DNA from: an uncultured Clostridia bacterium | GTDB lineage: Bacteria > Bacillota > Clostridia > Christensenellales > CAG-1252 | DNA: 36,706 nucleotides | Assembly (NCBI GenBank): GCA_946625545.1 | Contig: CAMOTC010000005.1 | Coordinates: forward strand, 1-36,706 | Reading direction: 5' to 3' | In this document: piece by piece, positions 17,799-34,773 of the stretch | Layout: every line of letters begins with the position of its first letter | Numbering within the stretch: the stretch's first letter is position 1 | Notes under the pieces: model-generated | What the model was told of the DNA's origin: nothing | The model's database searches: none | Seen by the model: only the letters and a program-made list of their open reading frames with translations | Translations under genes and position numbers: made by a program

Positions 17799-17824
17799 GA
17801 GGGCTGATAGCGCCTCAAAAGCCG

Positions 17825-17851
17825 AAAACAGGGGATTTTTCCTCTGTTTTT
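17825..17851 (+). terminator. Intrinsic terminator after the phosphoesterase
   Basis: Arms AAAACAGGGGA and TCCTCTGTTTT pair over 11 bases with one G-U, four-base loop, followed by T residues. It isolates the mraZ leader from upstream transcription. Confidence 0.8.
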
Positions 17852-17906: not shown

Positions 17907-17922
17907 CCACAATATATTGTGC
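17907..17922. promoter_or_regulatory. NrdR-box-like palindrome upstream of mraZ
   Basis: CCACAATATATTGTGC contains a perfect 14-bp palindrome and matches the known NrdR box (ACAC-W-ATATAT-W-GTGT) at 14 of 16 positions. It is about 70 bp upstream of the mraZ -35 box. Confidence 0.5.
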
Positions 17923-17939
17923 TTTTATATCTATATAGA

Positions 17940-17955
17940 ACACAATATATGCTTT
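17940..17955. promoter_or_regulatory. Second, half-conserved NrdR-like box
   Basis: ACACAATATATGCTTT has the left half and centre of an NrdR box intact (first 11 positions) and a degenerate right half. It starts 33 bp after the first box, about three helical turns, the usual arrangement of paired NrdR boxes. Confidence 0.4.
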
Positions 17956-17985: not shown

Positions 17986-18015
17986 ATAGTGGACGAAAGT
18001 GGATAAAAGTGTTAT
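17986..18015 (+). promoter_or_regulatory. Three tandem MraZ boxes
   Basis: ATAGTGGACG, AAAGTGGATA and AAAGTGTTAT follow each other with an exact 10-bp period. They match the AAAGTGKNNN repeat described as the MraZ operator in Mollicutes. They cover the mraZ -35 box and spacer, so bound MraZ should repress its own operon. Confidence 0.72.
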
Positions 18016-18018
18016 TAT
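17990..18018 (+). promoter_or_regulatory. Promoter of the mraZ (dcw) operon
   Basis: TGGACG (17990-17995), 17 bp, TATTAT (18013-18018), predicting a start near 18025, at the edge of the AGGGAGG ribosome binding site. The -35 box is weak (4/6), as is common for a regulated promoter. Confidence 0.5.
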
Positions 18019-18040: not shown

Positions 18041-18466
18041 TTGAGAGATATTATCGGCGGTACATATAAATATCAGATCGACTCTAAGGGTAGAGTTCGT
18101 ATCCCCGCGAAGATCAAAGCGCTTCTCGGTGATAATCTTTGGATATGTATCGGCGATCAGGAGAACCTTGTCATCTACACCGAAGAGATGATGGATCAGA
18201 TCTACGATAAGTACTCTCGTATGGAGGTAACAGATCCCGAATACAGCAAGCATCGTCTCATCTTTGCAAACTTGTATCCGTTCGTCCCCGATAATCAGGA
18301 TCGTTATCAGATCCCGCAGAGCCTTCGCGAAGCATTCGGGCTCAAGGACGAAGCGGTCTTTGTCGGTATGGTCAATAAGCTCGAAGTGTGGCGCGAGGAC
18401 GTCTATTTCGAGACGCTCGCGAGGGATAATCCCGATAGGCATATCCCGCGTTTTGCGAGGAAATAA
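18041..18466 (+). CDS. mraZ: Transcriptional regulator MraZ
   Basis: A 141-residue protein with two AbrB-like MraZ/SpoVT half-domains, forming a ring-shaped DNA-binding protein that regulates its own dcw operon. The signature D-S-K-G-R-V-R-I-P-A-K is at about residues 13-23 and the second copy is DNQDRYQIPQSLREAFGL. The start is a TTG at 18041 (MRDIIGGTYKYQID by family alignment) with AGGGAGG at 18025-18031; an ATG-less upstream extension to 17999 would run through the operator and promoter and is rejected. The TTG start may keep levels low. Three MraZ boxes overlap its promoter, so autoregulation is likely. rsmH follows with no gap. Confidence 0.93.
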   Translation: MRDIIGGTYKYQIDSKGRVRIPAKIKALLGDNLWICIGDQENLVIYTEEMMDQIYDKYSRMEVTDPEYSKHRLIFANLYPFVPDNQDRYQIPQSLREAFGLKDEAVFVGMVNKLEVWREDVYFETLARDNPDRHIPRFARK

Positions 18467-19411
18467 ATGAGCGAGTTTCGCCACGTGCCTGTGATGGCGA
18501 GCGAAGTCATCGCAGGGCTCGAGATCAAGCCGAATGGCAAATACCTCGACTGCACGCTCGGCGGTGGAGGGCACAGCTCTCTGATCCTCTCAAAGCTCGA
18601 GGGCGGTAAGCTCTATGCGGTGGATAAGGATCAAGACGCGATCGCCTTTGCAAAAAGCCGATTGGGTGAGCGTCCCATCTACATTCACAAGGACTTCAAG
18701 GACGCGATCGCAGCGTGGTCGGATGGCGAGCTTGACGGCATATTGATGGATCTCGGCGTTTCCTCCTACCAGTTGGATACGCCGTCAAGAGGATTCTCCT
18801 ATCGCTTTGATGCTCCTTTGGATATGAGGATGGACTCGGATAGCACGCTGACGGCGCAAAAAGTGGTCAACAGCTATTCCCAGAGGGAGCTCACCGACGT
18901 CTTTTATAAGTATGGCGAAGAGCCCTTTGCGAAAAAGATCGCAGCGAATATCGTGAAGGAAAGGGAGAACGCCCCGATCGAGACGACTGCGGAGCTCGTC
19001 AGGATCATAGAAAAGAGCATTCCGCCCAAAGTCAGATACTCGGGATCGCATCCTGCAAAGCGTGTCTTTCAGGCGATCAGGATCGAGGTAAACGGAGAAC
19101 TGTCCGGCCTCTATGAAGCGGTACTCGGAGCGATAAAGCTCTTAAAGCCGGGCGGGAGGATCGCAGTGATCACCTTCCATTCCTTGGAAGACAGGATCGT
19201 AAAGCAAGCCTTCAAGTACGCTGAGCTCGACTGCATCTGTCCGCCGCGTTCCCCGATATGCACTTGCGACAAAGTGAGCGAGGTGGAAATCATAACGAAA
19301 AAGCCCATTCTTCCGAGTGAAACGGAGATGGATGATAACCCGAGATCAAAGAGCGCGAAGCTCAGGATCGCAGAAAAAAAGGAATATATTAAAAAGGAGA
19401 GAATACAATGA
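18467..19411 (+). CDS. rsmH: 16S rRNA (cytosine-1402-N4) methyltransferase RsmH
   Basis: A 314-residue methyltransferase that modifies C1402 in the ribosomal P site with S-adenosylmethionine. The SAM-binding motif is YLDCTLGGGGHS at about residues 26-37, followed by AVDKDQDA; GILMDLGVSSYQLD, R-G-F-S-Y-R and the C-terminal FHSLEDRIVK are family signatures. A cysteine cluster near the end (C-I-C-P-P-R-S-P-I-C-T-C) is also typical. GAGGAAAT overlaps the mraZ stop and precedes the ATG. The end overlaps the next gene by four bases (ATGA). mraZ-rsmH is the usual opening of the dcw cluster. Confidence 0.96.
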   Translation: MSEFRHVPVMASEVIAGLEIKPNGKYLDCTLGGGGHSSLILSKLEGGKLYAVDKDQDAIAFAKSRLGERPIYIHKDFKDAIAAWSDGELDGILMDLGVSSYQLDTPSRGFSYRFDAPLDMRMDSDSTLTAQKVVNSYSQRELTDVFYKYGEEPFAKKIAANIVKERENAPIETTAELVRIIEKSIPPKVRYSGSHPAKRVFQAIRIEVNGELSGLYEAVLGAIKLLKPGGRIAVITFHSLEDRIVKQAFKYAELDCICPPRSPICTCDKVSEVEIITKKPILPSETEMDDNPRSKSAKLRIAEKKEYIKKERIQ

Positions 19412-30173: not shown

Positions 30174-31469
30174 ATGGACGATTTCTTTATGAACCAAATG
30201 AACTCAACCGACCTGCCTAACGCGCAGCCGACAGAGGAGACGGTTCCTTTTGTCAATCCTATGCTCAATCCCGATGACGAGGAGGATCTCACCGAGCGCG
30301 TGTGTAAGATCCTCGTGATCGGCGTCGGCGGTGCGGGTAATAACGCCGTCAATCGTATGATCCTCAGCGGGATCAAGAGCGCCGATTTTGTCGCCGCGAA
30401 TACCGATAAGCAGGATTTGATCTATTGCGCGAAGGGCAGGACCGACTTGAAGAGGCTCATGCTCGGTGTAAATTCCACAAAGGGTCTCGGCGCAGGCTCC
30501 GATCCCAAGGTGGGCAAGAAAGCCGCCGAAGAGACTCGCGAGATCATCAAGGAGCTCTTGACGGGGATCGACCTCCTCTTTATCACCGCAGGTATGGGTG
30601 GCGGTACGGGCACTGGCGCCGCGCCTGTTATCGCGAGCATCGCGCATGAGCTCGGGATCCTGACCATCGCCGTCGTCACCACTCCCTTTAAGTTTGAGGG
30701 TGACCGCAGAATGTCGCAGGCTCTCAGCGGCATCGACGAACTGCGTCCTTACGTGGATACGCTCCTCGTTATCCCCAATCAAAAACTTCTCGACGTACTC
30801 CCCAAGGGCACGACTTTTGCCGATGCTTTTGCTTATGCCGACGATATCCTTCGCCAAGGTATCCAAGGCATCGCAGGTCTCATTGTCAAAAATTCTCTCA
30901 TCAACCGTGACTTTGCCGACGTAAAGACCGTCTTAAAGGCGAAAGGCTTTGCGCATATCGGCATCGGCTCTGCGGAAGGGGAGAACCGTACCGTTGAAGC
31001 GATCACCAAGGCAGTCAACAATCGCCTCCTCGACACGAATATTCGCGAGGCGAGCGCCGCGATCCTCTTTGTCAGCGGCGGCTCCGATCTGACCCTTGCC
31101 GAGATCGACGAGGCAGGATCTCTCGTCGCGCAGGTACTGAATCCCGATGCGACCTTGATCTTCGGCGCGGATAACAGCCAGCAGACGAGCGGCGTCACCG
31201 TCACGATCATCGCGACAGGGTTCAAGAATGGAAATGATCCGATGTATCTCCGCACCCTCCCGTCCAATGCTCCGATCTCCCCGCGCGATCACATGATCCC
31301 GCACGATCGTGTCACTTCCTTTACCGATCTCCCGCCGATGCCCGATCGCAGACCTCCCGTCAACGATGCGCCCGTTCCTCCGCAGAATAACGACGACTCG
31401 GACGGTAGGATCCGTCTCTCCGACAATGATCTCCCTCCCTTTATGAGAAAGATCAAGCATCAGCAGTAA
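30174..31469 (+). CDS. ftsZ: Cell division protein FtsZ
   Basis: A 431-residue tubulin-like GTPase that forms the cytokinetic ring. The N-terminal tail is about 40 residues, longer than usual (Asp, Asn, Pro and Glu rich), before CKILVIGVGGAGNNAVNRM. The tubulin signature GGGTGTG is at 142-148, NTDKQDL and the T7 region around NREFADV-like NRDFADVKTVL are present. A Pro/Asp-rich linker follows, and the C-terminal conserved peptide is DLPPFMRKIK, the docking site for FtsA and SepF, both encoded in this window. AGGAGGTT precedes ATG 30174. A strong terminator follows. Confidence 0.97.
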   Translation: MDDFFMNQMNSTDLPNAQPTEETVPFVNPMLNPDDEEDLTERVCKILVIGVGGAGNNAVNRMILSGIKSADFVAANTDKQDLIYCAKGRTDLKRLMLGVNSTKGLGAGSDPKVGKKAAEETREIIKELLTGIDLLFITAGMGGGTGTGAAPVIASIAHELGILTIAVVTTPFKFEGDRRMSQALSGIDELRPYVDTLLVIPNQKLLDVLPKGTTFADAFAYADDILRQGIQGIAGLIVKNSLINRDFADVKTVLKAKGFAHIGIGSAEGENRTVEAITKAVNNRLLDTNIREASAAILFVSGGSDLTLAEIDEAGSLVAQVLNPDATLIFGADNSQQTSGVTVTIIATGFKNGNDPMYLRTLPSNAPISPRDHMIPHDRVTSFTDLPPMPDRRPPVNDAPVPPQNNDDSDGRIRLSDNDLPPFMRKIKHQQ

Positions 31470-34268: not shown

Positions 34269-34298
34269 TTGCATTTTATACACTATATATTGTATAAT
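34269..34298 (+). promoter_or_regulatory. Sigma-A promoter of nrdR
   Basis: TTGCAT (34269-34274), 18 bp, TATAAT (34293-34298), start near 34305, then AAGGAG at 34305-34310. The spacer is almost filled by an NrdR box. Confidence 0.72.
34280..34295. promoter_or_regulatory. NrdR box in the nrdR promoter
   Basis: ACACTATATATTGTAT matches the NrdR consensus ACAC-W-ATATAT-W-GTGT at 15 of 16 positions. It lies between the -35 and -10 boxes and overlaps the -10 box by three bases, so NrdR binding should block RNA polymerase: autorepression. Confidence 0.75.
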
Positions 34299-34317: not shown

Positions 34318-34773
34318 ATGAAATGCGTTTATTGCGGATCTATGGACAGTAAGGTTATCGACTCGCGTATCTCGGACGACGGGACCTCGATCAGGAGGAG
34401 ACGTGAGTGTTTGGAGTGCGGCAGAAGGTTTACGACCTATGAGACCGTCGAGCGCATTCCCGTCTTTGTGATCAAGAAGGACGGCAATCGCGAGTTATTT
34501 GACATCAATAAACTGCGCAGCGGCATTATGAAGGCGTGCGAGAAGCGCCCCGTGACCTATGAAAGCATCAATAAGCTCGTGACCGAGATCGAAAAGACCG
34601 TCTATAATATCGGGAGCAACGAGATCTCGAGCGATCGCATCGGCGACGAGGTCATGAAAGGGCTCAAGGAGCTCGATCAGGTCGCATACGTACGCTTTGC
34701 CTCTGTCTATAAGGAGTTTAAGGATATCGACACCTTCCTTGCGGAGATCGAGATGATCCTCGGTAAGAAATGA
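34318..34773 (+). CDS. nrdR: Transcriptional repressor NrdR
   Basis: A 151-residue repressor of ribonucleotide reductase genes that senses ATP/dATP. The N-terminal zinc ribbon has C3, C6, C31 and C34 with the family run V-I-D-S-R between. The ATP-cone follows from about residue 47 ([32 protein letters not shown]). The length is exactly that of the family. AAGGAG precedes ATG 34318. The promoter contains a near-perfect NrdR box, so the gene should repress itself. The last four bases overlap the next gene (ATGA). No ribonucleotide reductase gene is in the window. Confidence 0.96.

Follow-up and report, generated by a model that had tools for sequence, protein, structure and literature searches.

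Upstream of mraZ and its division and cell wall (dcw) gene cluster lies a pair of NrdR-type boxes, which is probably an operator of an expanded NrdR regulon that would be bound when dATP is high, with repression as the likeliest outcome. NrdR is described as a dedicated repressor of ribonucleotide reductase genes. In the genus studied here, which consists of uncultured gut bacteria, probably from the rumen, its regulon looks as if it had grown beyond dNTP synthesis to take in replication, ribosome synthesis and division. This points to a single sensor of DNA precursors that helps to control how fast members of the genus grow. The pair was found in a stretch of 36,706 nucleotides, called the window below. 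Binding by NrdR, its transcriptional effect and the sign of that effect at mraZ are what we infer from the sites, their conservation and spacing, the motif shared with other promoters and the presence of nrdR.

The coordinates of the features are collected in Table 1. Both boxes lie in gene-free DNA, in an upstream region with an A+T content of about 75%, with a terminator-like hairpin on one side and GTGGA-type repeats on the other, as had been predicted from the sequence. The repeats are assigned to MraZ from established knowledge, and we take them to be probable MraZ boxes. An operator for a divergent gene is excluded: there is no such gene, and the upstream gene is co-directional and ends in the hairpin. 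In the source genome, the centre of box 2 is 41.5 bp upstream of the MraZ repeats and 65.5 bp upstream of the mraZ -10 element. The pair neither overlaps nor adjoins the core promoter. Overlap or adjacency is usual for NrdR and not obligatory; the NrdR sites reported so far include a promoter-distal pair as well as boxes ahead of the -35 element (PMC12051234).

Direct reading bore out the original prediction of a first box at 17907 that matches the NrdR box at 14 of 16 positions, and of a second copy with one degenerate half. Box 1 is a 16-bp palindrome near ACACWATATATWGTGT, and its inner 14 bp, CACAATATATTGTG, form a perfect palindrome. The two boxes are 33 bp apart, start to start, in the source genome, with a spacer of 17 bp (16–17 bp over the nine genomes compared) and an integer number of helical turns between the centres. 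As the spacer optimum measured for four NrdRs is 15–17 bp and two boxes are needed (PMC12051234), the geometry fits that of a true NrdR pair, as had also been claimed.

Table 1. Features of the mraZ and nrdR regions, and further box positions in the source genome.
Feature	Position	Strand	Remarks
Terminator-like hairpin	17824–17851	+	3' of upstream phosphoesterase-like gene
NrdR-type box 1, CCACAATATATTGTGC	17907–17922	+	Read directly; matrix score 20.9; 79% mean pairwise identity, 9 genomes
NrdR-type box 2, ACACAATATATGCTTT	17940–17955	+	Left (inner) half intact, right half degenerate
GTGGAC/GTGGAT direct repeats, probable MraZ boxes	17988–18011	+	10-bp period; overlap mraZ promoter
Likely mraZ promoter, TGGACG -17- TATTAT	17990–18018	+	TG before -10; 9/12 consensus bases; -10 conserved in genus alignment
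mraZ	18041–18466	+	TTG start; TIGR00242 74.8 bits, under curated cut-off 98.35
rsmH (mraW)	18467–19411	+	TIGR00006 370 bits
ftsZ	30174–31469	+	In mraZ gene cluster; TIGR00065 378 bits
NrdR-type box at nrdR, ACACTATATATTGTAT	34280–34295	+	One mismatch; extends into nrdR -10 (TATAAT, 34293–34298)
nrdR, full-length Zn-ribbon/ATP-cone repressor	34318–34773	+	TIGR00244 197 bits; solved NrdR chains matched end to end, E 1.4e-39
Box at dnaN, source genome	L111 1506–1521		
Box overlapping -10 of gyrB/parE-type gene, source genome	L121 1235–1250; contig C3 near 38235		gyrA/parC-type gene next

It had been stated that no reductase gene is present here. This is true of the reductase itself, but the window does contain the gene for NrdR, 16 kb downstream of mraZ, so that the source genome encodes an intact NrdR. 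Within the genus, a search for nrdR gave a match in 9 of 13 genomes, the remaining four being 77–88% complete, and a box is present at 8 of the 9 nrdR promoters, where the partner box is weak or absent. Since NrdR autoregulation was never found in Proteobacteria (PMC5343134), a box on the nrdR promoter is already unusual.

No class I or II reductase was found in the 20 genomes of the family. This excludes either class as the target and leaves the class III gene nrdD, which is present in all 19 other family genomes (PF13597), as the relevant reductase target; it is the only ribonucleotide reductase gene found in the genus. In the source assembly, which is 81% complete, nrdD was not found with TIGR02487 or PF13597, and the link to the reductase therefore rests on the relatives. 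There, all ten genus genomes with the nrdD upstream region assembled carry a pair with 32-bp spacing directly before the TTGACA -35 element. The likeness of the nrdD and mraZ pairs indicates that the lineage uses one motif and one geometry at the reductase gene and at mraZ, and NrdR is most likely the protein that would bind the mraZ pair.

The motif is found at a wider set of promoters. A search of twelve relatives with the box pattern, allowing at most one mismatch, returned 34 sites, compared with a single site for the reversed control pattern. It was found that 30 of the 34 lie at six promoter types, namely nrdD (9), mraZ (5), dnaN (5), rRNA (5), nrdR (4) and S10 (2). As the motif is common to these promoters, the mraZ site is one member of a set, and it is from such pattern searches that the regulon was drawn. 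With the matrix, a box was located on the -10 element of dnaN in 13 of 13 genus genomes, 97–99 bp before the gene (L204–L215, L217). At the 16S rRNA promoter, the box is 74–88 bp before the TTGACA -35 element in all five leaders seen (L096, L098, L101, L104, L108), a count that is biased upward because the leaders were located via their boxes and those without a box would be missed. All five also have an inner half-site 32–33 bp upstream of the box. The contigs of these leaders break right after the box, at the rRNA operon. Rfam confirmed a downstream 16S gene in two of them, another two show the start of 16S, and the fifth ends in the homologous leader; the 16S covariance search gave a match in G017 only. 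The leader of the S10 ribosomal-protein operon has the box in two genomes. Outside these promoter types, one genome (G011, contig C32 near 2358–2404; L109 1458–1506) has a strong pair of NrdR-type boxes at a distance of exactly 33 bp; the pair directly follows a 469-codon open frame, and a tRNA gene lies about 220 bp downstream of it. Another genome (G003; L102 1498–1513) has a one-mismatch box between a rightward DNA glycosylase-like gene and a leftward frame, where a DNA-repair target is possible.

These sites point to a regulon that would comprise nrdD, nrdR, dnaN, a gyrB/parE-type gene, the 16S rRNA promoter, the S10 operon and mraZ/dcw. When dATP is high relative to its use, NrdR carrying dATP and ATP would form a tetramer on both boxes, three helical turns apart. 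Low dATP, as during active replication, would release the genes for precursor synthesis, replication, ribosomes and division together. Steric repression is expected at nrdD, nrdR, dnaN and gyrB/parE, where the boxes are in contact with the -35 or -10 element. At mraZ, rRNA and S10, some 40 to 90 bp separate the boxes from the core promoter downstream of them, and NrdR probably would act via bending of the DNA or via contact with RNA polymerase or MraZ. Such modes of action are plausible because NrdR introduces a sharp bend at each of its boxes (PMC12051234). With its degenerate box 2, mraZ would be expected to bind NrdR more weakly than nrdD does, and possibly to respond at high dATP only; in E. 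coli, a single mutated box lowers the affinity of NrdR 530- to 1000-fold (PMC12051234), so that binding at mraZ could be weak.

It is this upstream position that bears on the sign of the effect. NrdR may bind the pair yet act from its upstream position as an activator of mraZ, rRNA and S10; high dATP would then favour division and growth instead of holding them back. The boxes at these three promoters are indeed set apart from the core promoter, while those at nrdD, nrdR and dnaN are on it or adjoin it, and activation of topA via one box has been reported for the NrdR of P. aeruginosa (PMC4409342). However, NrdR has proved to be a repressor in every case where its mechanism was studied, and doubt has been cast on the topA claim (PMC12051234). 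Activation is therefore considered unlikely as an account of the pair, while being the main alternative at mraZ, rRNA and S10; repression is ranked first and appears the most likely effect at these promoters.

A less probable explanation is that a transcription factor other than NrdR reads the palindrome at all of these promoters. It would account for the presence of rRNA, S10 and mraZ, which lie outside the NrdR regulons found described in the literature searched. However, the motif and the 32-bp pairing at nrdD match published NrdR sites (PMC12051234), and nrdR, where it was found in the genus, itself carries the box at all but one promoter. We regard another factor as improbable, and NrdR remains the preferred reader of the pair.

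The scores and the conservation of the pair deal with the matter of chance. When the window was searched with CACWATATATWGTG, allowing at most two mismatches, three matches were found compared with 0.15 expected, and none of the shuffles reached three; the two best matches are box 1 of mraZ and a site 24 bp before nrdR. The matrix was trained on the nrdD and nrdR boxes of the genus only, which score 14.1–23.3, and box 1 of mraZ falls inside this range. The mraZ pair of the source genome scores 25.0, and the best of 300 shuffles 6.5. Nine genomes of the genus, including the source genome, have mraZ assembled, and the pair is present in the same place upstream of the gene in all nine, with 32- or 33-bp spacing; in each of them, none of 300 shuffles attained the score of its mraZ pair. 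Of the 46 offsets tried for the left half of box 2, the top-scoring one was 32 or 33 bp in each of the nine genomes. Nearly every genome has a degenerate box 2. Mean pairwise identity is 74% for the left half of this box, compared with 38–39% for the 16 bp that precede box 1 and for the spacer, close to the 31% expected by chance. The pair is thus not a chance match, as it was kept at one place while the spacer and flanks drifted almost to chance identity, and a chance palindrome is ruled out by the shuffles and the conservation. It is very improbable that the pair has no role, be it as a neutral remnant or as a chance palindrome in AT-rich DNA: the base composition of the region, the degenerate box 2 and the absence of the pair from most promoters of the sister genus might suggest it, but both boxes are retained in all nine genomes of the genus within flanks near chance identity, at scores that no shuffle reaches.

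The position of the pair relative to the promoter was compared in eight of the nine genomes, leaving aside G001, whose sequence contains undetermined bases in this part. Box 2 and the mraZ -10 element are 65.5–67.5 bp apart in six genomes and 77.5–78.5 bp apart in two. The helical phase of the pair relative to the mraZ promoter appears to be kept, with about one turn more in the longer group. The two distance groups are probably two clades, and the one-turn shift is therefore counted as one evolutionary event.

Beyond the genus, the picture is less uniform. The comparison of mraZ upstream regions across the family, with which the original prediction was to be checked, found the pair in every genome of the genus with mraZ assembled. 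Of the six mraZ promoters of the sister genus, five have no strong box, and the sixth (G015) has a box without a partner. Among 70 mraZ upstream regions from the rest of the order, beyond the family, 7 scored above the 99th percentile of shuffles, where 0.7 would be expected, the best scores being 20.6 (L133), 17.4 (L185) and 15.5 (L164). The last of these genomes (G051) has a full mraZ box and, by eye, a degenerate partner about 32 bp on. With only these seven above the threshold, an ancestral mraZ site of the whole order is unsupported. Judged by the genomes compared, the putative mraZ link is fixed in the genus and sporadic elsewhere. The proposed link between NrdR and division is thereby supported at the level of the genus, where the pair is retained and nrdD and nrdR share the motif, but its retention at the family level is only partial. 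A different element, approximately TTATTAAGAAATCTTAAT, was observed before mraZ in the sister genus (L026–L031) and before the S10 operon in the genus with the mraZ pair (L106, L110); it may be a second growth-related operator.

The coupling between replication and the cell cycle is an open question in bacteriology. If, in this one lineage, NrdR governs division, the replication clamp and rRNA as well, the dATP/ATP ratio would be a direct input to growth and division. The broader proposal is that NrdR is a general growth-rate regulator, in which one dATP/ATP sensor would jointly set the genes for the reductase, sliding clamp, topoisomerase, rRNA, ribosomal proteins, and division and cell wall synthesis; in our judgement, it is evenly balanced between right and wrong. 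It is a concrete proposal that specifies both the sites and the protein, and an established in vitro assay exists for it. In the literature searched, with much subscription literature lying outside it, no report of NrdR sites at dnaN or rRNA operons was found, and the co-mention of NrdR and mraZ that was examined stands in a gene list only.

The NrdR operators of the reductase operons of Streptomyces, E. coli, Listeria and Streptococcus resemble the mraZ pair in having paired, 16-bp palindromic boxes, three helical turns between the centres, a spacer of 15–17 bp and an NrdR of the Zn-ribbon/ATP-cone type. The mraZ pair differs from them in that its target would be a division and cell wall cluster, half of box 2 is degenerate, and the pair lies upstream of the promoter rather than on it. 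P. aeruginosa likewise has an NrdR box at a gene that is related to replication and does not encode a reductase, topA (PMC4409342). There, however, the box is single, whereas in the genus described here the sites at mraZ and rRNA are paired and the range of candidate targets is much wider. At the mraZ promoter of E. coli, PdhR is likewise a metabolite-sensing repressor that joins metabolism to division (PMC3265435), but it senses pyruvate, belongs to another protein family with another motif and bound only weakly in vitro (PMC3265435). In Streptomyces, WhiA acts on nrdR and on division genes (PMC3781837), so that there, too, one transcription factor links dNTP supply and division. While WhiA controls nrdR from above (PMC3781837), the NrdR-type sites described here are located at the division cluster itself.
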